Origin: Saprospiraceae bacterium
GTDB taxonomy: Bacteria > Bacteroidota > Bacteroidia > Chitinophagales > Saprospiraceae
Assembly (NCBI GenBank): GCA_958295895.1
Contig: CATQHI010000005.1
Coordinates: 72,501 to 136,500, forward strand
Direction: 5' to 3'
Length of the DNA: 64,000 bases
Position 1 is the first letter of the stretch; the number at the start of each line of letters is the position of its first letter. The translations under genes and the position numbers were made by a program. Positions 4,630-61,305 of this stretch are shown here, one piece after another. The notes under the pieces are model-generated. The model worked only from the letters and a program-made list of their open reading frames with translations, did no database searches and was not told where the DNA came from.

Positions 4630-4647
4630 GGGCGGGGCCGCAGGTGC
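4630..4647 (-). repeat. Dispersed 18-bp repeat, copy 1 (upstream of uvrA)
   Basis: Exact consensus GCACCTGCGGCCCCGCCC read on the minus strand, about 54 bases upstream of the uvrA start codon and in the same sense as uvrA. It is followed by ATTTTG in that direction. Confidence 0.85.
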
Positions 4648-4726
4648 GCACAACAGTAGAGGGGCCGGCAGGTATGATACGGCGCACTTTATCCGTTCTA
4701 TTGCGGTAACCCGACGTGGTGAGCTG

Positions 4727-4734
4727 TACTTTTG
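4727..4734 (+). promoter_or_regulatory. Bacteroidota -7 promoter box TACTTTTG
   Basis: Exact match to TAnnTTTG. Transcription would begin near 4739, downstream of the GTG at 4716. This argues for the later GTG start (4800) of the acyltransferase and a leader of about 60 bases. The -33 TTG is weak (spacing 23). Confidence 0.55.
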
Positions 4735-4799
4735 CGGCATTTCCTGCGAAAGACGCCTACCAAACTGCCCCTAACGTACCCTATGAATCAAACCCTTAC

Positions 4800-6605
4800 G
4801 TGAAGTACAGAACCGATATAGATGGGCTGCGGGCGCTCGCAGTAGTCTCCGTGATCCTCTTCCACCTGGGGTTTTTACCCAACGGCTACCTGGGCGTCGA
4901 CGTCTTCTTCGTCATCAGTGGCTACCTGATCACCAGTATCGTGTACCGGGAGTCGGAGCAGGATAAGTTCTCCATCACGCACTTCTACATGCGGCGCATC
5001 CGGCGCATTATTCCGCTGGTGCTCTTCATTACGGCGGTAGCCTTCGTACTCGGGCTCTGGCTGATGCTACCCGACGACTTCGAAAACCTCTGCCAGGCCA
5101 TCGTCGCCTCCAACGTCTCGGCCAACAATATCTTGATGTACATCACCTCCTCGGACTACTGGGCGGTGAAGAATGACTACAAGCCACTGATGCACACCTG
5201 GAGCCTGGGCATCGAGGAGCAGTTTTACCTGTTGTACCCCTTTCTGTTTTACTTCTTCAAGGGCAGTAAGGTGCACCGGGTGAAGTACATTCTCATTGCG
5301 CTGACGGCGCTATCCCTGGGGGCCTTCCTGCTGCAGGACAACGTGGCGGCTAAATTCTACTTCATCCAGTACCGCTTTTTCGAGCTCGCCATTGGAGGGC
5401 TGGGGGCTATTCTGTTTCGGGACGCGATCGTGAAGAACTACCGGACGGGGCGGTTTCTGCTGTACGCCCTCCTGGCCCTGGTGGCGGTGATCCTGTATTT
5501 CCCCATTATTCCAAGTAACGATGTCAAGGTACTGCTGACTACAATGCTCACCGTAGGTCTGCTGATCGTCGGTAAGGAGTATTTCGATAAGGATGCCCTT
5601 TACCAGGGCTTGATGTCAAATCCGGTGGCCCGCTACATCGGCATGATCAGCTACAGCCTCTACATGTGGCATCAGCTCGTTTTCGCCTTCGCCCGCTACG
5701 CTTTCCTGGACGAGATCACGCCGCCGTGGGCCGTGGCGCTCTCCGCCCTCACCTTCGTGCTCTCTATCGCTACCTACTACGGCATCGAGAATACCTTCCG
5801 GCAGCGGCGGGTCATGGCTACGCGCACGGTACTCGTTACCACCGCCGCGGCCTTTCTGGTCACTACGGTAGGGGCCTTCTACGTCTATACGCTGGGCGGG
5901 GTAATCCGGGACTACCCCGTACTGGGGCTTACCCGTGCCGAGGTAGCTAAGGAGCAAAAGTTCCTCAGTGGCGGAGGCGGTATTCACATTCGCTACAACG
6001 AACGCATCCGCGATATTGACCGGGGCTTCGATGACCTGAGTAAGATCAACACCCTGGTGATGGGCAACAGCTTCGGCCGTGACGCCGCTAACATCCTGCT
6101 CGAATCAGAGGTAGCCGATGAACTCGAGGTGCGCTACTTCGAGATCGGTAGGGCGATGGACGACGACTCCCTAGCCATCCGTATGCAACAGGCCGATAAG
6201 ATCTTTATTGGTGCTCAGGGTCCTCTCAGCAAAGATTGGCTCACCGAGCTCGAGCAGCGGTACGATTTTAAGATCGATCGCAACAAGATTTGGGTCATCG
6301 GCACCAAGGACTTCGGGTTCAGTAGCGGTATCCACTATAACCGGATCGATGCCGATACCGACTTCACCACCTACCGTACCCGCATGGAGGACCACGCTAC
6401 GGTACGCAATGCAGCCCTGAAATCCGAGTGGCAGGATCGCTACATCGACCTCATCGATCTGCTGGGTGATCAACACGGCAATATTTTGGTCTTTACTCCC
6501 GAGGGTAAGCTCATCAGTCAGGATACCGAGCACCTTACGAAGTACGGGGCTCAGTACATTGCCGAGCGCCTGAATGAACGTCTGAGAGAGATCGTCAATA
6601 GCTAA
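4800..6605 (+). CDS. Membrane acyltransferase 3 (OafA/YrhL type) with SGNH domain
   Basis: Probably O-acetylates a cell-surface or extracellular glycan. The first ~370 residues form an acyltransferase-3 domain with about ten hydrophobic segments and the typical VDVFFVISGYLIT start; the conserved His of that family lies in the first helix (ILFHLGFLPNGYLG). A periplasmic SGNH-like part follows: the Ser block reads VMGNSFGRD near residue 420 and the C-terminal Asp/His block reads EHLTKYGAQY near 577. The usual GDSH/GNSH His is Phe here, so hydrolase or transferase activity of this domain is uncertain. 601 residues from GTG 4800. A GTG at 4716 is also in frame but lies upstream of the best promoter box. 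The gene stands alone. Confidence 0.85.
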   Translation: MKYRTDIDGLRALAVVSVILFHLGFLPNGYLGVDVFFVISGYLITSIVYRESEQDKFSITHFYMRRIRRIIPLVLFITAVAFVLGLWLMLPDDFENLCQAIVASNVSANNILMYITSSDYWAVKNDYKPLMHTWSLGIEEQFYLLYPFLFYFFKGSKVHRVKYILIALTALSLGAFLLQDNVAAKFYFIQYRFFELAIGGLGAILFRDAIVKNYRTGRFLLYALLALVAVILYFPIIPSNDVKVLLTTMLTVGLLIVGKEYFDKDALYQGLMSNPVARYIGMISYSLYMWHQLVFAFARYAFLDEITPPWAVALSALTFVLSIATYYGIENTFRQRRVMATRTVLVTTAAAFLVTTVGAFYVYTLGGVIRDYPVLGLTRAEVAKEQKFLSGGGGIHIRYNERIRDIDRGFDDLSKINTLVMGNSFGRDAANILLESEVADELEVRYFEIGRAMDDDSLAIRMQQADKIFIGAQGPLSKDWLTELEQRYDFKIDRNKIWVIGTKDFGFSSGIHYNRIDADTDFTTYRTRMEDHATVRNAALKSEWQDRYIDLIDLLGDQHGNILVFTPEGKLISQDTEHLTKYGAQYIAERLNERLREIVNS

Positions 6606-6653
6606 CGGAGTCCGCTACTTCACCGAACCAAATTATAGAGTGGCAGGCTACAC

Positions 6654-6699
6654 CCACCAGTCTGACACTTCAAGTAACCGGTCAGACTGATTTCTGGTG
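6654..6699. terminator. Inverted repeat after the acyltransferase gene
   Basis: AGTCTGAC (6659-6666) and GTCAGACT (6681-6688) pair, with an outer CACCAG/CTGGTG pair. There is no clean T-run. It may be a weak terminator or an operator for the following lipoprotein gene. Confidence 0.4.
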
Positions 6700-6758
6700 C
6701 CAAACGCATTGTGGCTTCACGGTGGATGATGGCCCGGTCATGTTAAGTAGATTAGCAA

Positions 6759-11865: not shown

Positions 11866-11883
11866 GGGCGGGGTCGCAGGTGC
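11866..11883 (-). repeat. Dispersed 18-bp repeat, copy 2 (upstream of the hydrolase)
   Basis: GCACCTGCGACCCCGCCC on the minus strand, preceded by TT and followed by AGTTTG, 32 bases upstream of the hydrolase start and in the same sense. Identical 18-mer to copy 8 inside pheT. Confidence 0.85.
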
Positions 11884-13166: not shown

Positions 13167-13181
13167 GCACCCGCGGCCCCG
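13167..13181 (+). repeat. Dispersed 18-bp repeat, copy 3 (3'-truncated)
   Basis: GCACCCGCGGCCCCG preceded by TT, then diverging (GCCGC). Sense orientation, 33 bases upstream of the next start codon. Confidence 0.65.
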
Positions 13182-13214
13182 GCCGCATCCCCCACATTGG
13201 CTTTATCTTGTCGT

Positions 13215-15096: not shown

Positions 15097-15981
15097 ATGC
15101 CCCTAGCCATACATAACTGGATGCGTGCCGAGCCCCTGGAAGCCACCCTGGCGCGTATCACACCGCTGGGGTATGAATACCTGGAGATACAGGGCACCCC
15201 GGCCGATTACGATACCACGGAAGTACGCGGTCTCCTGAAGCAGTACGGCATCAAGTGTTGGGGCTCAGTGACGCTTATGCTCGGTACCCGCAACCTGCTG
15301 GCGGTAGACGAGGCCGAGCGCGCCGCCTCCGTACAGTACGTCAAGGACATCATCACTATGGTCAAGGAGCTCGACGGGCAGATGGTCAGCGTGGTGCCCG
15401 GCACGGTAGGGAAGATCATACCCGGCGCCCGCCCCGAGGAGGAATGGGAGTGGGCGGTAGCATCGATGCAGGAATGTTACGAGTTCGCACAAGCCGCCGG
15501 CGTGAAACTTGGTATCGAGCCCATCAACCGCTTCGAGACCTACTTCGTCAACCGCGGCGATCAGGCCCTGGCGCTGGCTGAGGCTACGGGGCCGGACTGC
15601 GGCGTCTGCCTCGACATCTTCCACATGAACATTGAGGAGCAGGACCCCTACGCTACGATCCGCCGAATGGGGGACCGCCTCGTAGGTTTCCACGTTGCCG
15701 AGAATAACCGCATGGCCCCGGGCATGGGTAGCATCGACTGGCCCGCGCTGTTGAACACCCTGAAGGAAGTAGGCTTCACCGGCCCCCTCTCCGTAGAGTT
15801 CGCCGCCCCGGTCGACCGCACCCCCGCCAATCCCTACCCCGGCAACATCGACACCGAACCGCAGGGACTCACCGAGGAGGCCCGCAAGTTCCTGGAGGAT
15901 CACGGTAGCTCCGCCCTGACCGAGGAGTTCTACACCATGCTTACCCGTACCTCCGCCGAGACCCTGCTGCCCCTACTATGA
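15097..15981 (+). CDS. Sugar phosphate isomerase/epimerase family (AP-endonuclease-2 TIM barrel)
   Basis: 294 residues, related to D-tagatose/D-psicose 3-epimerases. The divalent-metal site can be traced: Glu in IEPINRFE near 141, Asp in CLDIFHMN near 172, His in GFHVAEN near 198 and Glu in SVEFAAP near 234. No signal peptide, so cytoplasmic. Its stop overlaps the start of the next gene by four bases (ATGA), so the two enzymes are translationally coupled. First gene of the sugar-acid locus. Confidence 0.9.
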   Translation: MPLAIHNWMRAEPLEATLARITPLGYEYLEIQGTPADYDTTEVRGLLKQYGIKCWGSVTLMLGTRNLLAVDEAERAASVQYVKDIITMVKELDGQMVSVVPGTVGKIIPGARPEEEWEWAVASMQECYEFAQAAGVKLGIEPINRFETYFVNRGDQALALAEATGPDCGVCLDIFHMNIEEQDPYATIRRMGDRLVGFHVAENNRMAPGMGSIDWPALLNTLKEVGFTGPLSVEFAAPVDRTPANPYPGNIDTEPQGLTEEARKFLEDHGSSALTEEFYTMLTRTSAETLLPLL

Positions 15982-17685: not shown

Positions 17686-18602
17686 AGCCGACCGTACTGT
17701 TTTTAGAATCCGTCGATCCGGCGGCTTACGCGCTACTGCCGACCGAGGAGTATACCGCGATTTTACCCGGGAGGGAGCCAGCCGACTACGGTGAAGTAAA
17801 CGCCATCGTCACCCGCGGCAAGGGCGAGGTGGACCGTCCGCTCATCGACCGCTGCCCGGCCCTGCGGGTGATCGTGCGTTGCGGGGTGGGCGTCAACAAT
17901 ATCGAGGTAGACTATGCCACCACCCGCGGCGTCCAGGTACTCAATGTGCCGGGGGTGAACGCGGCCACCGTTGCCGAGCACACCCTGGGCCTCATGCTCA
18001 TGCTGGTGCGCGGCATGTACCGCCTGGTGCGGGAGGTCAAGCAGGGCAACTGGGACTACCGCACCACCTACGCCGGTAAGGAACTACGTGACCTCAAACT
18101 CGGTATCGTAGGCCGCGGCGACATCGGCAAGCGCGTGGGCGGGGCCGCAGGTGCGCTGCAAATGGAGGTGCGCTACGCCCGGCGGCACCGCGGCGATACT
18201 GCCGAGGGCCACCTTCCACTGGTCGACCTACTGGCGCAGAGTGATGTAGTGAGTCTGCACGTACCACTGACCGCTGAGACCCGTAACCTCATCGACGCAG
18301 AGGCACTGGCTCGGATGCAGGCCGGTAGCTACCTAGTCAACACCGCCCGGGGGGAGATTGTGGATGCCGCTGCGTTGCTGGATGCATTGGAGCGGGGGCA
18401 CTTGGCGGGCTACGCCAGTGACCTACTTTCCGGGGAAGGGGAGGTGCAGCGGCGGCTTATCGCTCACCCGAATGTGCTGATCACGCCCCATGCAGCTAGT
18501 CTTACGTCATTGACGTTTCGGGAGCTTTCGGAGCGCGGGGTACGGCATGTGGTGGAGTATCTGGGGGGGCAGGAAATTCAGAGGAGATTTCGGGTGAACT
18601 AG
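17682..18602 (+). CDS. D-2-hydroxyacid dehydrogenase (SerA-like, NAD-dependent)
   Basis: 306 residues. NAD loop GIVGRGDIG near 141-149, catalytic Arg in NTARGE near 222, Glu around 250 and His in TPHAAS near 269. It probably reduces or oxidises a 2-keto or 2-hydroxy acid made by the dehydratase upstream (inference from context). Between the glycine loop and strand 2 the protein carries RVGGAAGALQM, encoded by copy 4 of the dispersed repeat at the place where relatives have a charged helix. Confidence 0.9.
   Translation: MKPTVLFLESVDPAAYALLPTEEYTAILPGREPADYGEVNAIVTRGKGEVDRPLIDRCPALRVIVRCGVGVNNIEVDYATTRGVQVLNVPGVNAATVAEHTLGLMLMLVRGMYRLVREVKQGNWDYRTTYAGKELRDLKLGIVGRGDIGKRVGGAAGALQMEVRYARRHRGDTAEGHLPLVDLLAQSDVVSLHVPLTAETRNLIDAEALARMQAGSYLVNTARGEIVDAAALLDALERGHLAGYASDLLSGEGEVQRRLIAHPNVLITPHAASLTSLTFRELSERGVRHVVEYLGGQEIQRRFRVN
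18137..18154 (-). repeat. Dispersed 18-bp repeat, copy 4 (inside 2-hydroxyacid dehydrogenase)
   Basis: Exact consensus on the minus strand (GGGCGGGGCCGCAGGTGC on plus), antisense to the gene, coding for GGAAGA. Confidence 0.85.
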
Positions 18603-18660: not shown

Positions 18661-18708
18661 TTGCCGACAGCCACCTCCTTGGTGGAAATTTGAACGATCG
18701 TGTATCCA

Positions 18709-21700
18709 ATGACTCCTCCTATGCGAATGCTATTCAGCAGGGCGATTTGCCTTACTGGCTTTTTCTGCCTCCTTACTACTGCCGCCTGGGCGCAAACCAC
18801 CGTCACGGGTACCGTAATCGACCAGGATGGAATCGGGCTACCGGGCGTGAACATACTTGTGGTAGGATCCAGTACCGGCACCGTTACGGATCTGGATGGT
18901 ACCTACAATATATCGGTACCCGAGGGCGGTACGCTGCGCTTTTCCTTCATCGGCTTTGAGGCTCAGGAGATAGAAGTTAGTGGGCAGTCCACAATCGACG
19001 TTACCCTCGGAGCCAGTGCGGACGTGCTCGAGGAAGTGGTCGTAGTGGGCTACGGTAGCCAGCGCAGGGAGGCTGTGACCGGCGCCGTTTCCTCTATTAG
19101 CTCAGAAGAGGTTTCTGCTCTAACGGTAACTAACCTGGGTGAGGCCATCCAGGGTCGTCTGGCCGGTGTGCAGGTCACGGGTGGAGGTGCTCCCGGTGAG
19201 GCGCCGCTGATCCAGGTGCGGGGTATCGGCTCCATTAGCTTTGGCTCGGGTCCGCTCTACGTAGTGGATGGCGTACCCGGTGCCGGTGGACTCAATCAGT
19301 TTGATTCCCGCGATATTGCCAGCGTCAACGTGCTCAAGGATGCTTCGGCGACTGCCGTATACGGTTCGCGCGCCTCCAATGGCGTCATCATCATCGAAAC
19401 GAAGAAAGGCTCAAACAGCGGAGGTATCCGCCTCAGTTTGGAATCTACGGTAGGCGTACAAACGCAGCCCCGTCGCTACGACGTACTCAACTCAGAGCAG
19501 TATATCCGCTACGCGGAAACCCTCAACGGTATGCCGCTGGCTCGCACCCTTAACGGTGGCCTAGATGAAGAAACGTACCCGGGCTCTGGAGTAACCTTCA
19601 GAGAAACTAATACCAACTGGCAGGACGCCATTTTCCAGGATGGACTCATCACCCAGAACTCGCTGCACATTACCGGCGGCAACGATCGCTCGACCTTCTT
19701 TTCCTCCTTCGGCTACCTTAAGCAGGAGGGCATACTGATCGGATCGCCCTACGAGCGGTACAATTTCCGTATTAACAGCGAGCATAACATCAGCGAGAAC
19801 GGCCGCCTCAAATTTGGCCAGACCTTGTTGTTAGTCAACGACATTCGGGGCATTCAGCCTACCCTAGGTGGCCGCACCCAGTTTCTACAGGCTATTCAGT
19901 CTATTCCCTACCAGCCAATCTATAACCCCACGAATATCGGTGGTTTTTCCGGTGCGAATCAGGGACAGGACAGCGCCGACCCCGGTAACCCCGTGCTAGC
20001 CGCTAACCTCCTAGAAAATACAGACCAGGTATTCAAGACCCTGGGCACCGCCTACGCCAGCTATGAGATCATCGACGGACTAGAGGCTCAGTTGTTCTTC
20101 GGAGCAAATTTTCAAACCTTCCGGAATACCAATCACACACCGGTATATGAGTCGACCACGCCGCAAATCCTTAATCAAGTTAGCGAAAACAGAAGCACCA
20201 ATTTCAGTCCATTGTACCGCGGCCTACTCAATTTCGACCGGATTTTCGGGGATCACAGCATCAGTGCCGTAGTAGTTGGAGAGGTCCAAGACAACAACAA
20301 TAACTTTCTGGCTCTGAGTGGCATACAGCCAAATCCGGTGCTGGACGTGCTCACGGGTGCCACTCAGTTCAACGGTAGCGGCAATCCCAGCGAGTCGACG
20401 CTGCGCTCCTTCGTCACCCGTGTGACCTATGGGTACGAGGGGAAGTATTACGCTACCTTTAGTTTCCGCCGTGACGGTTCGTCCATCTTCGCCCCGGGCT
20501 TCCAAACGGAAAATTTTCCGGCTGGTGCCATCGGCTGGAACATCAGCGAGGAACCCTTCATGGACGATACTCCCTTTAGCCTACTTAAGGCACGGGCTAG
20601 CTACGGCCGTACGGGATCCATTGGCCTCGGCCCCTACAGCTTTCAGGACCCCATTAATTCCAGTCTGGGGCCGGTCTTTGGCGGTGCGGAACAGCCCATC
20701 GGCTCGTTCATTAGTTCGCTAGCTAACCCTAACCTCCGCTGGGAATTGACCGATATGCTCAATATCGGACTTGACGTTGGTTTCTTCAACAACCGCCTCA
20801 ACTTCAGCATGGAGTACTACGACCGCCAGGTCGACAACCTCATCCTGAGCGTCCAGCTTCCCCCCTCCGTCGGGGTAGGTTCGACGCAGCAGAACGTAGG
20901 GGCCATGAAGAACACCGGCTTTGAATTCCAGGGGCAGTACTACGGCAACCAGAGCAGTCCCTTTCAGTGGAACGTATCGGTTAATCTGAGCACCAATACC
21001 AACGAGGTGCTGCGGCTGGCCTCCGAGGACGACGTGATCTTTGCCAATAATGATGAGGCCTATACGGGCAACTTCGCCTCCACCATTACCCGCGCCGGCG
21101 ATCCGATCTACAGCTTTTACGGCTTCGAGACCGACGGCATCTTCCAGACGTTCGACGAGATCGATGCGGCTAACGCGCTGGACGATAACCCCACCACTTC
21201 CTTTCAGGACAATGCCGCCCCCGGTGACATTCGGTTCGTGGACCAGAACGGTGACGGAGCGATCACTGCCGCCGATCGGGTAATTCTAGGTAGCTACCTC
21301 CCTGATTTTACCTATGGCATCAACTTCAATGCCCGCTACCTCGGATTTGATTTTAATGTGTTCTTTAATGGTTCGCAGGGCAACGACGTGTACAACGGTA
21401 CGGCTTCGCTGCTCACGCAGACCACCCGTCTGTTCAACGTCAGCACCGACATCCTTAACGCCTGGACGCCGCAGAACACGAGTACCGACGTGCCCCGTAT
21501 CGCCCTCAACGACCCCAACAACAACCGCCGCGTATCCGACCGTTTCATCGAAGACGGTTCTTACCTGCGACTACGGGGATTGACGGTCGGCTACACGCTA
21601 CCCCTGACAGACAACAACTTCGTATCTAATCTACGCCTCTACCTTACGGGGCAGAACCTGTTCACCATCACCGGTTACAGTGGTCTAGACCCCGAAGTTG

Positions 21701-21786
21701 GGGGTGGCATTGGCTCGGTAGGGTTCGATAATGGTGACTACCCGGCGGCACGTTCCTTCATCTTTGGCGCACAGCTAGGCTTCTAG
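18709..21786 (+). CDS. SusC-type TonB-dependent outer-membrane transporter (first copy)
   Basis: About 1025 residues. Signal peptide (LTTAAWAQ), then a carboxypeptidase-regulatory-like beta-sandwich (VTGTVIDQDGIGLPGVNI, residues ~30-105), TonB-contact and plug region (VVVGYGSQRREAVTGAVSS, then RGIGS..GPLYVVDGVPG), and a 22-strand barrel ending GAQLGF. Imports an oligomeric or bulky substrate with the SusD lipoprotein that follows. Start uncertain: GTG 18700 and ATGs at 18709, 18721 and 18727 are in frame. Closely similar to the second SusC at 28432-31488, pointing to duplication. Confidence 0.95.
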   Translation: MTPPMRMLFSRAICLTGFFCLLTTAAWAQTTVTGTVIDQDGIGLPGVNILVVGSSTGTVTDLDGTYNISVPEGGTLRFSFIGFEAQEIEVSGQSTIDVTLGASADVLEEVVVVGYGSQRREAVTGAVSSISSEEVSALTVTNLGEAIQGRLAGVQVTGGGAPGEAPLIQVRGIGSISFGSGPLYVVDGVPGAGGLNQFDSRDIASVNVLKDASATAVYGSRASNGVIIIETKKGSNSGGIRLSLESTVGVQTQPRRYDVLNSEQYIRYAETLNGMPLARTLNGGLDEETYPGSGVTFRETNTNWQDAIFQDGLITQNSLHITGGNDRSTFFSSFGYLKQEGILIGSPYERYNFRINSEHNISENGRLKFGQTLLLVNDIRGIQPTLGGRTQFLQAIQSIPYQPIYNPTNIGGFSGANQGQDSADPGNPVLAANLLENTDQVFKTLGTAYASYEIIDGLEAQLFFGANFQTFRNTNHTPVYESTTPQILNQVSENRSTNFSPLYRGLLNFDRIFGDHSISAVVVGEVQDNNNNFLALSGIQPNPVLDVLTGATQFNGSGNPSESTLRSFVTRVTYGYEGKYYATFSFRRDGSSIFAPGFQTENFPAGAIGWNISEEPFMDDTPFSLLKARASYGRTGSIGLGPYSFQDPINSSLGPVFGGAEQPIGSFISSLANPNLRWELTDMLNIGLDVGFFNNRLNFSMEYYDRQVDNLILSVQLPPSVGVGSTQQNVGAMKNTGFEFQGQYYGNQSSPFQWNVSVNLSTNTNEVLRLASEDDVIFANNDEAYTGNFASTITRAGDPIYSFYGFETDGIFQTFDEIDAANALDDNPTTSFQDNAAPGDIRFVDQNGDGAITAADRVILGSYLPDFTYGINFNARYLGFDFNVFFNGSQGNDVYNGTASLLTQTTRLFNVSTDILNAWTPQNTSTDVPRIALNDPNNNRRVSDRFIEDGSYLRLRGLTVGYTLPLTDNNFVSNLRLYLTGQNLFTITGYSGLDPEVGGGIGSVGFDNGDYPAARSFIFGAQLGF

Positions 21787-21886
21787 GAGACAAAAACTCC
21801 AAAACCAGCAAACCGGTAGATTACGTTTATCAACTGCGGGAACACTGACCATTTCGCCAATATCAACAGTTACAACACTTTCGATC

Positions 21887-23419
21887 ATGAGATTAAGATT
21901 ACTTTCTTTACTGGTGCTGTTGCTCGTCATCGGATACGGCTGCCAGGAGGACGATTTGACCCGCCTCGATCCAGGGCGCGTGGTCCCCGAGAATTATTTT
22001 AATACCGCCGACCAGATCGAGTCGGCTGTGCTGAGCGCCTACGCCCCCATGCGTTCGCCCAATGTCGCCGGGCGCTGGTACTACTTCCTCAACGACCTGC
22101 GTGATGATCAACACATCGGTACCAGTGCACTGTTTCAAACCGGGGGTGCCCTCACCCGCGGGGAGCAGACCGCTACGGCCGGGGAGATTAACGCACACTG
22201 GACCTCGCTTTATCTGATGATCCACCGCGCCAACACCGCCCTGGATGGTATCGCGGGCAACACGAACCTCACCGATGACGTAAAGAACCCGCTGGAAGCC
22301 GAAGCCCGCTTCCTACGCGGGTGGGCCTACAACGAGATCGCTACCAACTTCGGCGGCGCGCCCATCTACCTTAGTCGTGTTACCGATCTGGATCAATTCC
22401 TGCCCCGCAGCCCACGTGAGGCAGTATTCGACCAGGCCCAATCCGATCTGCAGTTCGCCGCCGATAATCTCCCCGTGGATCGTGTGGACGACCAACGCGG
22501 TCGGGCCACCCGGGGTGCTGCCCTCGGATTTCTGGGTCGCAGCTACATGCAGAGCAATGAATTAGATGCCGCCAGGACGGCACTAGAGGCCGTAGTCGGC
22601 CTAGGTACTTATTCCCTCAACGAGAACTTTTTCGACAACTTCACCGAGGAGAATGACTTCACGCCCGAAAGCCTCTTCGAGGTGGTCTACGCACCCATTG
22701 GTGATTTTAACTGGGGAGGAACAACCACCGGTGACGGTATCGAAGCCAAGTCCGTTCGCGCTCAGGAGTACGGTCCTAGTTGGCGCAACGTCACCCCCTC
22801 TTCCAATATTGCTAACCTATTCGAGAACGAACTCGCCGGTTGCTCCTACACCGATCCTCGCTTGTCCCAGACAGTCATCTTCGAAGATCAAACCTACGGT
22901 CCCGACAATACCATCCCCCTGGTGATCAATGAAAACGGCCCACGGATCAACTATCAGGGAATGGAAGTTTACGCCAACTGGTATAAATATGAGGTCTACT
23001 ACAAGCAAGACCCCGGTGCCTACTACACCACGACTACGAACTATGTCGTCATGCGCTACGCGGACGTGCTGTTGCTGTTAGCCGAGATCGAGGCGCGTCA
23101 GGGTAATCTGGAACAGGCCCGTACCTACATGAACATGGTACGCGAGCGTGCGGGAGTACCCGACATCGAGGAAAGCTGTGTAGCTAACGGTACGCAAGCC
23201 GAACTCATCAAGGCCATCGTAGACGAGCGGGGCAAGGAGCTAGCCTCCGAGGCTATACGTGCCCGTGACCTCCGCCGCTGGGATGAGGCCGGCGTCATCG
23301 ACGCGGCCGATTACCTTGATTACTGGAGCGATAAGCAGTTACTCCTGCCCATACCGCTACAGGAAATCATCACCAATCCGCAAATCACCGAGGCCGATCA
23401 AAACCCCGGCTATAACTAA
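21887..23419 (+). CDS. SusD-type substrate-binding lipoprotein (first copy; RagB/SusD family)
   Basis: 510 residues. Lipobox with Cys19 (GYGCQEDDL). Helical TPR-like scaffold with FLRGWAYNEIATNFGGAPIYL and a C-terminal half with MRYADVLLLLAEIEAR, the family hallmark, ending ADQNPGYN. Forms the lid of the SusC transporter. The C-terminal ending is shared exactly with the second SusD (26792-28318). A terminator follows at 23439. Confidence 0.95.
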   Translation: MRLRLLSLLVLLLVIGYGCQEDDLTRLDPGRVVPENYFNTADQIESAVLSAYAPMRSPNVAGRWYYFLNDLRDDQHIGTSALFQTGGALTRGEQTATAGEINAHWTSLYLMIHRANTALDGIAGNTNLTDDVKNPLEAEARFLRGWAYNEIATNFGGAPIYLSRVTDLDQFLPRSPREAVFDQAQSDLQFAADNLPVDRVDDQRGRATRGAALGFLGRSYMQSNELDAARTALEAVVGLGTYSLNENFFDNFTEENDFTPESLFEVVYAPIGDFNWGGTTTGDGIEAKSVRAQEYGPSWRNVTPSSNIANLFENELAGCSYTDPRLSQTVIFEDQTYGPDNTIPLVINENGPRINYQGMEVYANWYKYEVYYKQDPGAYYTTTTNYVVMRYADVLLLLAEIEARQGNLEQARTYMNMVRERAGVPDIEESCVANGTQAELIKAIVDERGKELASEAIRARDLRRWDEAGVIDAADYLDYWSDKQLLLPIPLQEIITNPQITEADQNPGYN

Positions 23420-28318: not shown

Positions 28319-28431
28319 GATCGAAATAAATTAGTGGCGTGAAGGAGAAAGGTGGAGTACGCCGATCCGGCTACCGGGGCCCTACTCAAGATATAACAAA
28401 GGTGGGTATCCGTTTTAGCATACTTTGTCGG

Positions 28432-31400: not shown

Positions 31401-31488
31401 CAGTGACGGTTATTTGGCCCCACACTGAGGTGGAGAACAGGCACAGTAGGGAAAACAGGCCCACATACCTGAAGAATGACAGTTGCAT
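28432..31488 (-). CDS. SusC-type TonB-dependent outer-membrane transporter (second copy)
   Basis: 1018 residues from ATG 31488 (MQLSFFRYVGLF); an ATG at 31512 is also in frame. Signal peptide ends SVWGQ. Carboxypeptidase-regulatory-like domain (VTGTVVDESGLGLPGVNV), plug with VVVGYGSQRREAVTGAISS and GPLIVVDGVPGAG, barrel ending GAQIGF. The blocks are so close to the first SusC that an inverted duplication of the SusCD pair around the FG-GAP gene is the simplest explanation. Confidence 0.95.
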   Translation of the reverse strand: MQLSFFRYVGLFSLLCLFSTSVWGQITVTGTVVDESGLGLPGVNVIVVGTSSGTVTDLDGVYSLSAPEDATLRFSYIGFSPQEVVVNGQTTIDLTLGSDANLIDEVVVVGYGSQRREAVTGAISSVNSEALTQVITPDLGEAIQGRLAGVQVTSSGDPGQAPQIQVRGIGSINFGSGPLIVVDGVPGAGSLNQFDSRDVESITVLKDASSTAIYGSRASNGVLLVTTKSGSRDQPIRITAESTVGVQTQPGRYEGFSTADYVSYAEVLSGIPLARKLDETPPGETVPYREQQVNYQDALFQDGLLTQNSLHISGGSSRSSFFSSLGYLKQEGVIIGGGYERYNFRINSRHDLVESGRFRFIQTLAISNDDRNDREGNLLRDAVQSIPYLPIRNPNNIGGFNGAQQGLDSADPRNPIRNALQEINRTRTTRIFGTVALEYDILEGLTATALYSGNNQIYRGYNRDPIYQATVSNNINVITESRSNDYSPLYRGQLTYDRIFGDHSINATAVGEVQETYNGFARIQGNHSTNDLTNLEGATITAGTTTRNKTVLQSAIGRFTYGYRGRYLISGSVRRDGSSIFAPGNGTEIFPAGAVAWRVSEEPFMQNTPVSEMKLRASYGRTGSIGLGPYRFQAPIQQTIGAVLGGDNTPSLGAYISDLPNTGLSWEITDMLNVGLDVGFLNNRLNFSLEYYDREVDNLILNIPLSPSFGPDGTSVNVGAMRNTGFEFQGQFFSPRDQAFVWNVSANVSTNTNEVLRLAVEDGAIFFGNNEVGQGYTGEFAPTITRVGDPVFSFFGFETDGLFQTVDEIDAANALDDDPTTSFQDNAAPGDVRFVDQNGDGRITDQDRIILGSYLPDFIYGLNFSGTFRNFDVSLFLQGSQGNDIYNGFRSLRYQTTRLFNGAPEKFLDAWTPTNPNTDVPRVALNDPNNNRRMSDRFLEDGSYLRLKNVTLGYTVPFGAGSAIANLRLYVSAQNAITLTGYSGLDPEIGQITGGLVGFDAGRYPVARSFLFGAQIGF

Positions 31489-31590
31489 AAAGTGATGGTT
31501 TTTGCTGATCAAATACTACCTCTTGCTGCTTGTCCAAGTCGGATGGGAGGGCCGCGCTAGTAGTACAGTGGCCGTAGGGAGGTTGATGCT

Positions 31591-44018: not shown

Positions 44019-45295
44019 CGGACTACGACGCGGCTGGTAAAGGCCCGGTCCCCGTCCGGCACGAACAGATTATACACGCCGGTGGCCAGCCCTTCTACGC
44101 TGAAGGTCACCTGCGCCCCGGCGTTTTCAATGTTCAACCGGCGTACCTGCCGACCGGCGGCGTCGAAGAGCATGGCGGCGGTGGGTTGTCTCACATCGCC
44201 CAGCGGCAGGATAAAGGAACTCGCCGTAGGGTTGGGGTAAATTCCCAGCCGGTCGGCAATGAGGGTAGGACTGCCCGTAGAGATCACGGTAGCATCGAAG
44301 TTAAGTGGCCAACCCATATCGAAGAAGATACCCAGGGTGATCTGCCCCGGTTCCCGGATCACCTCGCCGTTAGCGATCTGCGGGGTCATGAGGGCGTCGA
44401 GGGTGCCCCGGCCGAAGGTACTCTCATCCGTATGGCTCACGCTGCTCCCTATGTCGAACGTAGAGGGGGCAAAAAGCGGCACCAGCTCTCCACCATTTTT
44501 GGCTACCGCACTGTCGCCGGCCCAGTCGAGCTGGCTGATGATGGCCGTGAAACGGCCGGCGGAGGTAATGCCCGCAGGTCCGAACTCCACCGTATCCACC
44601 AGGCGGAGCCCCGGCGGTGTTTCCAGGAACTTATCGTAGACGATGAAACGATCCAGCCCGTCGTCACCCAGAAAGCCGATGTTGGCCGTCGTATCGATGG
44701 TGCTATCTACCCGAATACTGCTCAGAAAACCCAGTCCGTGGCCCAGCTCGTGGATCATGACGGTCGCCATGTCGGTGCGCGCCCGCGAGATCGGCCCGGT
44801 CACGTTGTAGGCCCAGTTGGCGGTGCTGTTCACCACTACGTTGATGTCCGGCATCGTGTCGTTCTGGTTTTCGCCGGTTAGGGCCTCGACCAGTGAGCCC
44901 ACATACCATACACTGCTATCCGGGGCTCCCACGAAGTCCGCGAACAGCGTGGTAGGCCCGGCACTGGCCAGCAGTCGCTCATCCCCGCGGTCGCGCCAGT
45001 CGACGGACACGTTGATGGGTACATCGGACTGTAGAAAAGAACCCCACACATCACCGGCGAAGCGGATGGCAGTCCTGGCCTCACTCGGTACGCTATCGGA
45101 AAACTCAAACACGAACTGCGCCGTCAGCGGTCGGTTCTGCTGCCTAAACTCCACGGGGAAGTCCTGCACGAAGGTGGTATCCCCGTCATTACCACACGTA
45201 ATGGTAAAGCCAGGGGCTTGCTGCTGGGCAAACACTAGGGTGGGGCCGCAGGTGCAAAGCAGGAGGAAAAAGGCGAGAGAAGCGAACTGTTTCAT
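44015..45295 (-). CDS. Exported zinc metalloprotease with T9SS sorting domain
   Basis: 426 residues, signal peptide ending VFAQ. Zinc motif HELGHGLGF near 183 (HExxHxxG, metzincin type), preceded by TDMATVMI. The last ~85 residues are a type A sorting domain ([17 protein letters not shown] ... [10 protein letters not shown].. SRVVVR). Expected to be cell-surface or secreted. The signal peptide stretch [11 protein letters not shown] is encoded by repeat copy 9. Convergent overlap with rny by four bases. Confidence 0.9.
45238..45255 (-). repeat. Dispersed 18-bp repeat, copy 9 (in a signal peptide)
   Basis: GCACCTGCGGCCCCACCC on the minus strand, 17 of 18, preceded by TTT and followed by TAGTGTTTG. 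Read in the frame CTCGPT within the hydrophobic core of the signal peptide. Confidence 0.8.
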
Positions 45296-47552: not shown

Positions 47553-47570
47553 GCACCCGCGTCCCCGCCC
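47553..47570 (+). repeat. Dispersed 18-bp repeat, copy 10 (secA leader)
   Basis: GCACCCGCGTCCCCGCCC, 17 of 18, preceded by CTT, in sense 26 bases before the secA start; TTTTAC follows three bases on. Confidence 0.8.
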
Positions 47571-52001: not shown

Positions 52002-53417
52002 ATGGCCCGTTCCCTGAAGCGGCCGCGTACGGATGTCACCACCGTCATCCTGTACATTTTTTTGGTGTGTACGGGGCTGCTCATGATCTACTCCGTGGGT
52101 GCTCCCCCGGATGGCTACACGGGTAGCACCCTGAACCTTCTCACTACCCCCTTCGGCAAGCAATTTATCTGGGCCGGTATTTCGGTAGGCGTCTGGGTCT
52201 GCATCAATTACCTCATCGACCGCAAGGTCTGGGTAGTGGGTGCCTATCCCATCTACGCCGTCACCGTCCTGCTACTCCTACTGGTCCTGGTGGTGGGTAA
52301 GGAGATCAATGGAGCCCGTTCCTGGTTCAGTCTGGCGGGTTTCACCTTTCAGCCCAGCGAGCTGGCCAAGTTTGGGGCCTGTCTGGCCATGGCGGCCTTC
52401 CTGAGTCAGTACTCCGGTAAGCTCGATCAGCTGCGTACGGTTGTTTATGGCTGTATCATTTGGCTCATTCCGGCCGTTGTCATTCTGGGCCAGCCGGATA
52501 TGGGCTCTACACTGGTCTTCACCGGCTTTCTACTCGTCATGTACCGCGAAGGGCTCACCCCGCTGCTCTTCGTCCTCGGTGGTTTCACGGCGTTCATGGT
52601 CGTACTCGGCATCCTTTTTCCCTTTCAGTACCTACTGGTGGCGCTACTGGCCCTCTGTGTGCTCCTCTACGCCCTTTCCCTTCCCCGGCGGTCTAAACTG
52701 TACGGTCTACTGGGCGGGGCCGCGGGTGCAGCGGCCTACGTGGGGGTACAGTCCGGCTACGGCTGGCAGTCCGCCGCGGGACTAGGTATCCTACTCTTCG
52801 CGCTGATCGGCTACCACCTTAGCCAGCGCAACACCCGCCTGGTCGCCACCAGCCTATTTTTCATCAGCTGGGGGCTGGCCCTCACCTTCACGGCTAACTA
52901 CGTCTATACCAGCGACGTGCTTCCCGCCCACCAGCACGAGCGCATCGTGGTGTGGCTGCACCCCGAGGATGCCGACCCCCGGGGCAGCTACTACAATCTG
53001 CTGCAGAGTAAGCTGGCCATTGCCGCCGGGGGCCTGAGCGGGCGGGGTCTCCAGCAGGGTACCATGACCCGCTTCGACTACGTGCCGGAGCAGCAGACGG
53101 ACTTCATCTTCTCCGCCATTGGTGAGGAGCAGGGCTTCATTGGAGTAGGGATGCTGATCCTCATCTTCGGTCTGCTACTCTACCGTATAACGGTGATCGC
53201 TGAGCGGCAGCGGCGCACCTTCGCCCGGGCCTACGCCTACGGAGTGGCCGGTATATTACTGGTCCATTTTCTAGTCAACGTAGGGATGACGATGGGCTTG
53301 GTGCCGGTGATCGGCATTCCACTGCCGTTCATCTCTAAGGGGGGCTCCTCGCTGCTGAGCTTCACGATCATGATCGCCGTGATGCTGAAGCTGGATAAGC
53401 ACCGGGGGGAGGTGTAG
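52002..53417 (+). CDS. rodA: Peptidoglycan glycosyltransferase RodA (SEDS family)
   Basis: 471 residues, about ten membrane helices. SEDS signature: GKEINGARSWFSLAGFTFQPSELAKFG early, QPDMGSTLV for the catalytic-Asp helix, and PEQQTDFIFSAIGEEQGFIG then GLVPVIGIPLPFISKGGSSLL late. A hydrophilic-poor middle stretch (~190-250) contains LGGAAGAAAYVG from repeat copy 11. Polymerises lipid II in the elongation machinery. Starts three bases after the SPOR-like gene. Confidence 0.94.
   Translation: MARSLKRPRTDVTTVILYIFLVCTGLLMIYSVGAPPDGYTGSTLNLLTTPFGKQFIWAGISVGVWVCINYLIDRKVWVVGAYPIYAVTVLLLLLVLVVGKEINGARSWFSLAGFTFQPSELAKFGACLAMAAFLSQYSGKLDQLRTVVYGCIIWLIPAVVILGQPDMGSTLVFTGFLLVMYREGLTPLLFVLGGFTAFMVVLGILFPFQYLLVALLALCVLLYALSLPRRSKLYGLLGGAAGAAAYVGVQSGYGWQSAAGLGILLFALIGYHLSQRNTRLVATSLFFISWGLALTFTANYVYTSDVLPAHQHERIVVWLHPEDADPRGSYYNLLQSKLAIAAGGLSGRGLQQGTMTRFDYVPEQQTDFIFSAIGEEQGFIGVGMLILIFGLLLYRITVIAERQRRTFARAYAYGVAGILLVHFLVNVGMTMGLVPVIGIPLPFISKGGSSLLSFTIMIAVMLKLDKHRGEV
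52712..52729 (-). repeat. Dispersed 18-bp repeat, copy 11 (inside rodA)
   Basis: GGGCGGGGCCGCGGGTGC on plus, the same 18-mer as copy 13, antisense to rodA, coding for GGAAGA in a membrane segment. Confidence 0.85.
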
Positions 53418-57407: not shown

Positions 57408-57414
57408 AACCGCC

Positions 57415-58110
57415 ATGAACGACGATAAACTAAAGGGTTTCATTCAGGATCACCGGACGGACTTCGATGAGGTCGCGCCCCCGGCCAGCCTGTGGGACCG
57501 CGTCGCCGCCGCCCTACCGAGTGATGAAGACGATGGCGACCCCCTCGAAACCTTCATCGCTACCCACCGCGAGGCTTTTGACGATGCCACGCCGCCCCCG
57601 CAGCTCCTTACCAAAGTGCTTGCACCCGCGGCCCCGCCTGCCTCAGCACCCAAGTTAAAGGTCAGCCATCGCCGCACCTTCCTGTATCTCACCGGCATTG
57701 CCGCCTCCCTACTGCTCATGTTCACCGCCTACCGCTTCGGCAATCGGGCGGGCTACCAGGCCGGGCAGGAGGAGCACCTCGCCCAGCAGATCCAGCAGCT
57801 CGATCCCGAACTGGCCGAGGCCGAACGCTTCTACCAGCAACGCATCGACGCCGAATTTACCCGCGTGGATCAGGTCAATGACGACCCTCAGTTGCGCCGT
57901 GACCTCAAGGAACTCGATGCCGCTACGGCCGACATCCGCGCTCAGCTTCTTAAAGTGCCCCAGAGTCAGCGCCCCATGCTGGTCAATGAACTCATCGAGG
58001 CCTACCGCACCAAACTCGATATCCTACTGCGCATCCAGCAGCGGATTCCTACTCCCAACTCCCCCGGGGCCCCCGCGCCCCGCCCCAATAAATCGACTCA
58101 TGAAAGTTAA
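57415..58110 (+). CDS. Membrane anti-sigma-factor-like protein with duplicated N-terminal motif
   Basis: 231 residues. One membrane helix at ~88-106 (FLYLTGIAASLLLMFTAYRF) divides a cytoplasmic N-terminal part from a periplasmic helical tail. The N-terminal part holds two copies of one motif, residues 9-30 and 47-68: FIxxHRxxFD followed by PPxxLxxxV, eleven identical positions at an exact offset of 38. Single copies of a similar motif occur in Bacteroidota anti-sigma proteins, as I recall them. The linker LAPAAPPAS between motif 2 and the helix is encoded by repeat copy 12. Overlaps the next gene by 11 bases. Confidence 0.82.
   Translation: MNDDKLKGFIQDHRTDFDEVAPPASLWDRVAAALPSDEDDGDPLETFIATHREAFDDATPPPQLLTKVLAPAAPPASAPKLKVSHRRTFLYLTGIAASLLLMFTAYRFGNRAGYQAGQEEHLAQQIQQLDPELAEAERFYQQRIDAEFTRVDQVNDDPQLRRDLKELDAATADIRAQLLKVPQSQRPMLVNELIEAYRTKLDILLRIQQRIPTPNSPGAPAPRPNKSTHES
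57622..57639 (+). repeat. Dispersed 18-bp repeat, copy 12 (inside the anti-sigma-like gene)
   Basis: GCACCCGCGGCCCCGCCT, 17 of 18, preceded by CTT, coding for APAAPP. Confidence 0.8.
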
Positions 58111-59236
58111 TTTCATTCCCCTCCTGGCCGTGCTGGCCTTTTTACTACCTAGCCTCGGCCATGCTACCACCCCCCGGACCGCCGATTTCGAAAAACGACT
58201 CTCGGAGACCTTCGACATCAACGCCAACGGACGGGTAAACCTCGAAAACCGCTACGGCGAGATCAAGGTCGTCACCTGGTCACAGCCCCGGGTCAAGATC
58301 GACGTGCTCATCCGGGTGCAGGCCCGCAACGAAGATGATTTTAAGAAGGTGCTGGAGCGTATCGACGTGAGCCTACGCGGCGGCGGCAGCAGCGTCTCGG
58401 CCACCACCACGGTCGGCTCCGGTGGCAGCAACAGCTGGTGGAGCTTTATCACGGGCAACAACAGCAGCAACGACTTCAAGATTTATTACACGGTCAGCAT
58501 GCCCGCCACGGTCGGCCTCGATGTAGACGCCAAGTACTGCGACGTCGAACTCCCCAACCTCAGCGGCCCCACCGTGCTCAACGTTGGCTACGGAGACCTC
58601 GTCGCCGGCAAGCTCACCGCCAGTAGCGAGCTAGACGTCAGCTACGGCTCGGCCCGCATCGAACAGCTCGGCGGTGGCAGCCGGGTCAAACTGCGCTACA
58701 GCGAGGGCACCTTCCGCAATACCGACGGTGACCTGACCTACGACGGCCGCTACAGCGAGGTCCGCTTCGGCACCGTAGGCGGCGTGCTGCGTCTCGATGT
58801 CGGCTACGAGGAGATCGAGGTGGAGTCCGCCACAGAAATCTACCTCAACGGCAGCTACAACGAGCTTGCCGCCGAACGCGTCGGCCGCGCCCACCTCGAC
58901 GGCAACTATACTGAGTTCCGCCTGGGCACCGTAACCAAATCACTTGAAGTAGATGGCAGCTACGGCGACGTAGAAGTAGGCACCCTCAGCGCCGGCTTCG
59001 ACCGCATCGACATCGACGTCTCCTACACCGACGTGCAGATCGACGTAGATAACGCCGCCGGCTACACCCTCGACCTCAGTGCGCGCTACGGCGACATTGA
59101 TGTACCCACCGCTGACCTGAGCCCCCGAGACATCCGTAGTGAGGGCTCCAGCGAGTCGGTGAGGGGTACTAAGGCGGGTACCGGGCGGGGGACGATCAAG
59201 ATCAGTACCAGCTACGGGGATATCGAGATCTACTAA
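58100..59236 (+). CDS. Exported DUF4097-like beta-solenoid protein
   Basis: 378 residues from ATG 58100, signal peptide ending LGHA. The mature part is built from repeats of about 20 residues with Tyr-Gly/Ser-Asp/Glu turns ([61 protein letters not shown]), typical of DUF4097/DUF2807-like adhesin-head solenoids. Such proteins often end sigma/anti-sigma operons in Bacteroidota; role probably at the envelope. Translationally coupled to the upstream gene. Confidence 0.85.
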
Positions 59237-60510
59237 AGTCCTAGTAGCAGCAGCGTAGGATCCTCCAGCAGCGCCTTCACCTTCACCAAAAAGGTCACCG
59301 ACGAGCTACCGTCAATCACCCGGTGGTCGTAGCTGAGGGCCAGGTACATCATGGGGCGGATCACGACCTGCCCATCCACCGCCACGGGCCGCTCGATGAT
59401 GTTGTGCATACCCAGGATGGCCGACTGCGGCTTATTGATGATGGGCGTACTCATCATACTCCCGAACACCCCGCCGTTGGTGATCGTGAAGGTGCCGCCG
59501 CTCATCTCCTCGATGCTCAGCTTGTTGTCGCGGGCCTTGGCGGCTAACTCCTTGAGCTTGGTTTCGATGTCGGCGAAGTGCAGCGACTCGATGTTGTGGA
59601 TGGGTGGTACGACCAGTCCGGTGGGCGTAGAGACGGCAAAGCTGATGTCGACGTAGTCGTGGTAGATCAGTTCCTTCCCGTCCTCGGTGATTTCGGCGTT
59701 CACGTCGGGCATTTCCAGAAGCACCTGGGCGCAGGCCTTGGCGAACAGCGACATGAAGCCCAACTTGACCCCGTACTTCTCCACAAATCTTTCCTGCACG
59801 CTGCTGCGCAGGGCCATCACAGCGCTCAGGTCCACCTCATTGAAGGTAGTGAGCATGGCCGTTTCGTTTTTCGCGCTCACCAGGCGGGAGGCGATGGTAC
59901 GGCGCATGCGGCTCATCTTCTCGGTGCGCGTGTTGCGGGAGAAGGAGGGCGAAGGGGAGGTGCTGCGCGCAGGCTGGGGCTTAGGGGAAGCGGGCGGGGC
60001 CGCGGGTGCAGCGGACTTGGTGGGAGCAGCCGCAGCAGGCGTGGGCTTCGAGACTGCCGACTGCGCATCGGCCTTGGTGATGCGCCCGTCGCGACCGGAG
60101 CCGTTGACGGTACTGGGGTCTACATCGTTTTCGCGCAGAATCTTGCCGGCGGCGGGGCTGGGGGTGCCGGTGGCGTAGGTGCGCTCGTCCGCCGGTGCTT
60201 TTTGCGGCGTCTCGGCCGCCGAGGCAGCCGCTGCGCTTGGTGCTTCGGCGGCCGAGCCGTTGTCACCCGATGCGCTCGTGTCGATCTTTGCTACCAGGGC
60301 CCCAATCTTCAGGTCGTCACCCTCGCCGGCCACGTACATGAGCTTACCGGCTGCCTCGGCGGGAAATTCCAGGGTGGCCTTATCGGATTCAAACTCACAG
60401 ATGGGCTCGTCGAGCTCTACGTAGTCGCCATCGCCCTTGAGCCATTCGCTCAGGGTGACTTCGGTGACGCTTTCCCCGATGACGGGGACTTTCATTTCGA
60501 CGATGCTCAT
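59233..60510 (-). CDS. sucB: Dihydrolipoyl succinyltransferase, E2 of 2-oxoglutarate dehydrogenase
   Basis: 425 residues. One lipoyl domain (1-77) with the lipoyl Lys44 in ESDKATLEF, an Ala/Pro linker, a peripheral subunit-binding domain at ~115-150 ([32 protein letters not shown]), a second Ala/Pro/Ser linker, and the catalytic domain with HRVIDG (His396, Asp400). The [13 protein letters not shown] entry and the [17 protein letters not shown] block fit SucB. The second linker carries repeat copy 13. E1 (sucA) is not adjacent. Four bases overlap the end of the solenoid gene, convergent. Confidence 0.93.
59992..60009 (-). repeat. Dispersed 18-bp repeat, copy 13 (sucB linker)
   Basis: GCACCCGCGGCCCCGCCC on the minus strand, in sense with sucB, coding for APAAPP in the inter-domain linker. 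Confidence 0.85.
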
Positions 60511-60603
60511 GGGGGGAATGAATCTAAGGTTGGGTTAAATCTGCCTGGAGTAACGCGGCGGTGTGCGCGGGGTTGAGGTAAAGGTACAGTACATTGGCGG
60601 CCG

Positions 60604-61305
60604 ATGCCCCGCCCCCCGACCGTGCCGCGCCTGCGCTACTACCTGAGTTACCTGTGGGAGCAAAGCCTGGTACGTACCTCTTCGGAGTACAACGCCTACC
60701 TGGAGGTCTGCGTAGTATACGGCCGGTTACAACTGGTGGCCGAGGATGCCATCTACAGCTTCGGCGACTACTACCTCAACTTCCGTAAGGTCTTCGAGGT
60801 GTTCAACTATCAGGAGCTACCGGAGCGGGCGGCGGTGCTGGTGCTGGGCCTGGGCCTGGGCAGCATACCGGAGCTACTGGAGCGGCACATCGGCGTAGAC
60901 TACACCTACGTAGCCGTGGAGATCGACCCGGTGATCATCGAGCTAGCCAGTCGGTATAGTCTGCCCGCGCTGGACTCCCCGGTGGAAGTGGTGCAGGCCG
61001 ACGCCATGGCCTTTTTACAGCTCGACGAGCGGCGCTTCGACCTGATCTGTGTAGATGTCTTCCAGGATGCCACCATACCGGAGCACTTAGATGATGAGTC
61101 ATTCCTAGCGCTCTGCCGCGAGAGTTTGCTGCCCGGTGGGGCCCTGATCTATAACCGGCTGGCCTCCAGCATTCCGGACCGTAATGCCGCAAAAACCTAC
61201 TTCACCGAGACCTTTGCACCGGCGTTCCCCGCCCCCTACCTGTACGATACGGGGGGCAACTACCTGCTGGTGAACGACGGCAAGTTTCTTACTTTGGCGG
61301 GATGA
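60604..61305 (+). CDS. Spermidine-synthase-like methyltransferase-fold protein
   Basis: 233 residues. Rossmann methyltransferase core: VLVLGLGLGSIPELLE as the nucleotide loop, VAVEIDPVIIELA with the acidic residue of motif II, and DLICVDVFQDATIPEHL where true spermidine synthases have D-x-x-D-P. The N-terminal YLEVCVVYGRLQLVAEDAIYSFGD matches the beta hairpin of that family. Whether it makes a polyamine is uncertain. A TACATTGG box ends six bases before the ATG. Repeat copy 14 codes for APAFPA near the end. Confidence 0.82.
   Translation: MPRPPTVPRLRYYLSYLWEQSLVRTSSEYNAYLEVCVVYGRLQLVAEDAIYSFGDYYLNFRKVFEVFNYQELPERAAVLVLGLGLGSIPELLERHIGVDYTYVAVEIDPVIIELASRYSLPALDSPVEVVQADAMAFLQLDERRFDLICVDVFQDATIPEHLDDESFLALCRESLLPGGALIYNRLASSIPDRNAAKTYFTETFAPAFPAPYLYDTGGNYLLVNDGKFLTLAG
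61216..61234 (+). repeat. Dispersed repeat, copy 14 (19-base variant)
   Basis: GCACCGGCGTTCCCCGCCC, preceded by TTT, the same TT-variant as copy 7; sense, coding for APAFPA. Confidence 0.55.

Follow-up and report, generated by a model that had tools for sequence, protein, structure and literature searches.

Throughout the 64,000-nt window analysed here (contig CATQHI010000005.1, from a 4.77-Mb genome of the Bacteroidota), a GC-rich 18-bp word recurs about once every 4 kb, which raises the question of what such a word is for and what reads it. The original prediction had listed 15 copies and considered a DNA uptake word, a site for a nucleoid or segregation protein and an iterated word like the highly iterated palindrome 1 (HIP1) of cyanobacteria. 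From the sequence data presented below, the word is probably a self-DNA recognition signal, most likely one used during DNA uptake. We assign a probability of about one half to a more specific reading, in which it would be a self-recognition word of the DNA uptake sequence (DUS) type that is read directionally over ~3 kb and has been spread by biased transformation. The source genome, termed G000 (other G numbers denote compared genomes), is placed in the same genus as Neolewinella maritima (Bacteroidota, Saprospiria, Lewinellaceae), which is also the named relative of a window protein (75% identity in the best segment).

The word and its dialects

The word GCACCYGCGGCCCCGCCC occurs 409 + 479 = 888 times in the complete source genome with ≤2 mismatches, compared with 12 occurrences of a reversed control. 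Detailed counts for this genome refer to an 864-kb sample unless stated to be genome-wide. This sample contains 68, 119, 170 and 212 copies at ≤0, 1, 2 and 3 mismatches, respectively, whereas twelve order-3 Markov sequences searched with the same cut-offs gave means of 0, 0, 1.1 and 12.2 copies; a wider consensus with ≤2 mismatches yields 209 copies. The 10- and 12-mers that are most over-represented in the sample relative to an order-4 model come from the word. Within the window, a scan with ≤3 mismatches returned 15 places (dinucleotide shuffles expect 0.55), of which two with three mismatches, at 34563 and 60150, were absent from the earlier list and look like chance. Of the 15 listed copies, 13 are 18-mers with 0–2 mismatches, while those at 39882 and 61216 proved to be 19-mers with one extra central base. 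The recurrence of exact 18-mers (the T form three times, the A variant twice and the C form twice) was as described, as was the occurrence of copies within genes on both strands and in the gaps between genes; the preceding TT was found at nine of the 15 window copies and, among 170 genomic copies, T occupies position −2 in 55% and position −1 in 62%.

In the sequence logo of these 170 copies the 18-bp core is strong, position 6 being a pyrimidine and position 10 loose. The upstream flank is weak (C at −11, A at −9, T at −6, C or G at −4 and TT), with parts of it present in coding and non-coding copies alike, and there is almost nothing downstream; G152 (26 copies) and G156 (20 copies) carry extra A-rich letters on the downstream side. 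The word is asymmetric and non-palindromic.

Among 150 genomes of the family, including the source genome and covering 112 genera, hundreds of copies are found only in the source genome and two congeners (538 and 540), and the remaining genomes contain a background of 0–5. Within the genus, 18 of 21 genomes are rich in the word, with 165–1126 copies (position 13 free, ≤1 mismatch), and the other three have 2, 6 and 18; counts for the reversed control were 0–7. These counts bear out what had been anticipated for the whole genome, for a Markov background and for sister species. The word has species dialects. C stands at position 13 in 83% of the copies in the source genome and in 59% of those in G155; the consensus sequences of G152 and G156 have G there, as do most of the exact matches listed for G116 and G150. 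Counts for G006, G159 and G153, which have 1–3 copies each in this comparison, were set aside. Two of the three word-poor genomes have iterated words of their own: TACCTGCGCTCCGCCGC(AAA) in G160, with ~16 dispersed copies in 160 kb, and CTAACAAAGTAGCAATG in G158, with 39 copies in 140 kb (three G158 contigs of <1 kb were excluded from every count). Forms intermediate between the G160 word and that of the source genome are present in G161. The G158 word looks unrelated to that of the source genome; its reverse complement matches TTGCACCTGCG in register at TTGC and CT, which may be due to chance. In 298 other genomes of the family (G158 being outside this sample) the G158 word has at most eight copies each and at least one in 195, like its control. 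The third word-poor genome, G167, has no clear word; the G160 form is only weakly over-represented in it (8 versus 0.85). A HIP1-like identity, one of the options in the original prediction, fits poorly because the word lacks palindromic symmetry and comes in species dialects.

Maintenance as DNA and spacing by orientation

Conservation was assessed by alignment to the relative G155, with blocks that are mostly 74–86% identical. Of 61 coding copies in the stretches that were compared, 35 could be aligned and 26 could not. Fixed motif letters at third codon positions of these 35 copies are identical at 125 of 155 sites (81%), where the same codons at other places would predict a fraction of 0.558, and all third positions within the copies at 134 of 180, compared with 0.536. 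The overall identity of the coding copies equals that of control windows of the same genes (14.26 versus 14.37 of 18). Since the silent letters are kept while overall identity is that of the controls, the word is maintained as DNA and the amino acids it encodes are not special. A G155 copy with ≤2 mismatches lies nearby for 20 of the 35. This result rests on a gapped version of the test; a strict ungapped version left 13 sites, for which identity was barely higher than in GC-rich controls (15.10 versus 14.76 of 18). A protein motif, which had already been discounted, was rejected on the same retention of silent positions and on the use of several frames on both strands.

Copies also turn over. 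Counting all kinds, 54 of 113 copies could be aligned to G155 (57 could not, many lying outside the G155 stretches, and two were too long), of which 25 have a counterpart in the same orientation, two have one in the opposite orientation only and 27 have none. In the reverse direction, both flanks could be aligned for 36 of the 48 copies that the G155 stretch contains, and for 26 of these the source genome has a copy. At the site of the 4630 copy, G155 has GCACCTGCGTTCCCGCCC in the equivalent place. The copy upstream of secA (47553) is kept in five of six aligned relatives (≤2 mismatches, position 10 free) while its flanks diverge, and is altered in G167. A mobile short repeat of the repetitive extragenic palindromic (REP) or miniature inverted-repeat transposable element (MITE) kind would suit the excess of divergent pairs less than 500 bp apart (15 versus 6.4 expected) and the frequent location of copies in gaps of species-varying length. 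We consider it extremely improbable, as no parent element is seen, the copies have little flanking sequence in common (low flank information, n = 170) and insert length is not constant at the sites that lack the copy in G155, some of which differ by substitution at equal length. Viral contigs gave 52 stretches with one exact copy each and no dense carrier.

The spacing of the copies depends on their orientation: those that share an orientation avoid one another and those of opposite orientation do not, an observation that is new in this analysis. In the source genome, 144 of 206 neighbouring copies are oppositely oriented, compared with 104 ± 7 after shuffling (0 of 5000 shuffles as high). The corresponding values are 36 of 52 in G155 (19 of 5000 as high), 23 of 32 in G152 (51 of 5000) and 19 of 28 in G156 (256 of 5000), and, for their own words, 13 of 18 in G160 (299 of 5000) and 21 of 34 in G158 (1201 of 5000). 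Pairs less than 3 kb apart in the source genome number 26 in the same orientation, versus 74 ± 8 at random places, and 82 in opposite orientations, versus 75 ± 9; with places fixed and orientations shuffled, the 26 same-orientation pairs among 108 compare with 53 ± 5. Pooling G155, G156 and G152 gives 16 same-orientation pairs versus 44 ± 6.5 and 48 opposite pairs versus 45, with 31.5 ± 4 same-orientation pairs expected from orientation shuffling. For the pooled own words of G158 and G160 there are eight same-orientation pairs versus 15.4 ± 3.5 (22 of 2000 as low), the effect being weaker under orientation shuffling (8 versus 12.3 ± 2.5; 229 of 4000). The reversed-motif control displays no depletion (14 versus 13.5). 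Restricted to pairs in which both copies are coding, the source genome has 11 same-orientation pairs versus 21.2 ± 3.3 (0 of 4000 as low), and the avoidance is therefore not a by-product of operon starts; the same subset in the three relatives is small and the effect weaker (3 versus 6.0). Each orientation taken alone is also spaced more regularly than random in the source genome (variation of 0.67 and 0.73 versus 0.97–0.98, with mean spacings of 8.6 and 7.7 kb), and both orientations together are less regular (0.83 and 0.87 versus ~0.99).

Because the avoidance is confined to copies of like orientation, reading of the word appears to be directional, and most simply we infer that each copy serves its own orientation only, over ~3 kb. 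The avoidance might instead reflect nothing but the instability of direct repeats, the word itself having no directional function. Intervening DNA can be lost by deletion between direct repeats, and the avoidance grows stronger the more closely the copies match the word (~0.25 of expected at ≤1 mismatch, 0.35 at ≤2); deletion between 18-bp repeats 1–3 kb apart would, however, be too rare to select on, and the depletion reaches out to 3 kb, so that we regard instability alone as very unlikely.

Candidate readers of the word

If the word serves DNA uptake, free DNA would be taken up and DNA bearing the word would be preferred or processed from it. Word-bearing alleles could then spread by transformation until the permissive coding and non-coding places are saturated. 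With a reach of ~3 kb, a second copy nearby in the same orientation would be redundant, while an opposite copy would not. Retention at silent positions, presence on both strands, turnover and dialects are what a molecular-drive view of uptake sequences predicts. Accumulation would be driven by transformation and the reader would be the uptake machine. The dialects, the coding copies kept as DNA and the permissive places make an uptake-type word the best-fitting of the options in the original prediction. A fuller version, which we hold somewhat more tentatively, is that this could be a directional Bacteroidota self-DNA word independent of type IV pili, with its own ~8-kb grid in each orientation, a strand-specific machine that would begin at the word and work over ~3 kb, and species barriers set by changes of the word.

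ComEC was found in all 21 genomes of the genus, and a protein with an HHH_3 domain, which we take to have the ComEA-type fold, in 20 of 21, the one lacking it being a 55% complete genome. The pilus motor family PF00437 gave marginal hits in 20 of 21 genomes, covering at most 83 of 370 positions with a best score of 24.9 bits (up to 25.5 with neighbours); 11 of 21 genomes just reach the 24.9-bit cut-off, and these hits are probably unrelated P-loops. As there is no convincing pilus motor and no hit to the secretin, the known class of receptor is probably missing, and the receptor would differ from the pilus minor pilin of Neisseria. A screen of mutants in Riemerella anatipestifer, also of the Bacteroidota, picked out ComEC and DprA together with an outer-membrane barrel, an HHH protein and a DUF5689 protein; no pilus gene is among those given in the relevant passages of the report (PMC8459023), and another uptake route may therefore exist in the phylum. 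The Riemerella-type surface domain DUF5689 was found in only one of the 21 genomes of the genus, G158. There, three DUF5689 domains lie in one frame (contig C115, 8691–10592); this is also the genome with the most different word.

Several points weigh against uptake as the function. The secretin family PF00263 has no hit in any of the 21 genomes, and the route known for type IV pili, with a minor-pilin receptor, was not recovered (no convincing motor and no secretin; the pilins themselves were not searched for). G167 has ComEC yet almost no word. The higher density of coding copies in genes with a G155 ortholog in place (0.214 per kb, 30 copies) than in others (0.083 per kb) would suit uptake, but only four copies fall in the latter class, and copies are little scarcer in large islands that G155 lacks (0.229 versus 0.290 copies per kb). 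The open-licence literature yielded no paper on transformation for this genus. An orientation rule is not a known feature of uptake, which in Haemophilus influenzae is independent of orientation according to the passages of PMC1939737 that treat it. There is a weak correlation between orientation and GC skew (r = 0.37 and 0.49, 16 bins each, origin not located). Uptake also does not predict that intergenic copies point toward the nearer gene start, as they do in the source genome (29:6 in divergent gaps and 35:13 in the sense direction of tandem gaps), in G155 (9:0 and 7:4) and in G156 (4:0 and 9:6).

This last property would suit a binding site for a chromosomal protein involved in nucleoid structure, folding or global regulation, as would the conservation at the DNA level and the presence of a sense start codon ≤75 nt ahead of 45 of 170 copies, compared with 5.7 expected (gene calls are from our own simple codon-usage caller with approximate starts, and some copies classed as upstream sit in signal peptides, as judged from their sequences). 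With the same caller, intergenic DNA is enriched 4.7-fold in copies, the 209-copy set comprising 52 coding sense, 62 coding antisense, 87 intergenic, seven at gene edges and one at an end. Over half of the copies are thus intragenic on either strand, which argues against a chromosomal protein. The gene-start rule also fails in G152 (2:2 and 6:10), is little seen in G160 (1:0 and 6:5) and is reversed for the G158 word as written, which points away from gene starts (1:9 and 4:4). The avoidance persists in coding–coding pairs, half of the alignable copies have no G155 counterpart, and exact TAnnTTTG boxes are few near the copies (counted without a formal control). We therefore judge a chromosomal protein to be distinctly unlikely. 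A promoter element was rejected on the same scarcity of boxes, and so were transcription terminator pairs, there being only eight pairs of copies less than 250 bp apart in 800 kb (66–202 bp apart, all in opposite orientation).

The principal alternative, although in our view rather unlikely, is a Chi-like signal, at which an end-chewing helicase–nuclease of the AddAB/RecBCD type would stop when arriving from one side and so mark the DNA as self for recombination, so that the copies of each orientation would serve the ends arriving from one side. It would predict redundancy within an orientation and independence between orientations, as observed, and the density of one copy per ~8 kb and orientation is comparable to the scale of Chi. 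The spacing suggests directional reading but does not point to a particular enzyme. Chi sites, however, are 5–8 nt long and usually replication-biased; the present word has an 18-bp core plus flanks, its correlation with GC skew is weak and each of the 32 bins of 25 kb examined contains copies in both orientations (origin not located). Replacement of the word within one genus would also be unexpected for a repair signal. No replication-biased orientation of the kind seen in Chi and in the FtsK orienting polar sequences (KOPS) was found across these bins, with neighbours alternating more than chance; a polar segregation site, as the original prediction had allowed, is thus not supported.

Copies in the window and other repeats

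The 15 copies in the window are listed in Table 1. Two gene pairs at 18700–23419 and 26792–31512 form an inverted repeat that flanks an FG-GAP/UnbV gene, with longer arms that are 71–77% complementary.

Table 1. Location, form and genomic setting of the copies of the word in the window.
Coordinates	Strand	Form	Setting	Remark
4630–4647	−	Exact (T form)	Divergent gap between UvrA-type gene (1751–4687, −) and acyltransferase gene (4716–6605, +)	Within first codons if GTG at 4687 is the start
11866–11883	−	A variant	Divergent gap	Retained in G155
13167–13184	+	One mismatch	~30 nt upstream of gene called at 13215	
18137–18154	−	Exact	Antisense within 2-hydroxyacid dehydrogenase gene	
25275–25292	+	Exact	Within FG-GAP/UnbV gene	
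25507–25524	−	Two mismatches	Opposite strand of same FG-GAP/UnbV gene as 25275 copy	
31840–31857	+	Two mismatches	70 nt into enolase-like gene	
39882–39900	+	19-mer variant	Within phenylalanyl-tRNA synthetase beta gene	Weak evidence, because surrounding DNA is conserved in relatives as coding sequence
41261–41278	−	A variant	Antisense in phenylalanyl-tRNA synthetase beta gene	
45238–45255	−	One mismatch	Early codons of secreted (Por_Secre_tail) protein gene	Lost in G155
47553–47570	+	One mismatch	26 nt upstream of secA gene	
52712–52729	−	Exact (C form)	Antisense in FtsW/RodA gene	
57622–57639	+	One mismatch	Within gene 57415–58110	
59992–60009	−	Exact (C form)	Sense strand of 2-oxoacid dehydrogenase E2 gene	
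61216–61234	+	19-mer variant	Within open reading frame 60604–61305	Weak evidence, because conserved in relatives as coding sequence

No comparable word was found in 100 kb each of five genomes from other genera (G062, G100, G023, G042 and G080), where the best dispersed candidates were a gene family (G023), an array like clustered regularly interspaced short palindromic repeats (CRISPR; G042), a protein repeat (G100) and otherwise nothing; a rarer word would escape samples of this size, because 100-kb blocks of the source genome hold only 8–16 copies of TGCACCTGCG. The CRISPR-like array of G042 (L147, 1771–3711) has a ~47-bp repeat, GCTGTAATCAACTACACTTAAGATACAATTTGAAAGCCAATCACAAC, every 77 bp, with 26 copies seen. 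The outgroup G057 (L151–L155) contains a GC-rich repeat of at least ~120 bp, with 34 copies in 100 kb and several variable hairpins around AGGGCCGAGC, which looks like a structured element. A dispersed word in G028 (L156–L160), CCTTTCGGCAA, has 12 copies in a 100-kb sample, in both orientations, and is possibly another iterated word. Tandem repeats were also seen within the genus, as arrays of ACTAAAAG and ATGGCGAAGCCAGC in G167 (L092–L093) and as a ~35-bp repeat containing AGTGAGCTCTACCGCGCAGCCTCTACC in G160 (L098, ~15,450–15,710).

Comparison with known systems

Like HIP1, the word is highly iterated throughout its genome; HIP1 of cyanobacterial genomes, however, is an 8-bp palindrome and the word is asymmetric. 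Chi sites are directional and are found on both strands and within genes, features that the word appears to share, but they are far shorter and replication-biased.

Uptake words of this kind have so far been reported only in the Neisseriaceae and Pasteurellaceae, as stated in the passages of PMC12616744 that deal with their distribution, and in the open-licence literature no such word is reported by title or abstract for Lewinella, Neolewinella, Saprospira or Bacteroidetes. The uptake signal sequence (USS) of the Pasteurellaceae resembles the present word in several respects described in parts of PMC1939737: 65% of the H. influenzae copies lie in reading frames, there is no chromosomal orientation bias and even spacing is discussed. 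The extended USS, as presented in part of PMC12616744, likewise has a core with weaker flanks. The difference lies in orientation, uptake by H. influenzae making no distinction (PMC1939737, in the passages concerned) while only same-orientation copies avoid each other here. The DUS of the Neisseriaceae, as described in sections of PMC3630211, shares with the word its many non-palindromic copies in genes and gaps, its permissive places in core genes and its species dialects. A DUS is 10–12 bp long, whereas the present word has 18 bp, occurs about once per 4 kb and belongs to another phylum; with no convincing pilus motor there would be no ComP route, and the spacing is resolved by orientation. 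If the uptake reading is correct, a Bacteroidota word with several dialects in one genus and no convincing pilus motor would mean that self-recognition evolved again with another machine, a question that becomes testable in cultured type strains. Orientation-resolved spacing, in turn, provides a simple genome test of directional reading that can be applied to Haemophilus and Neisseria.

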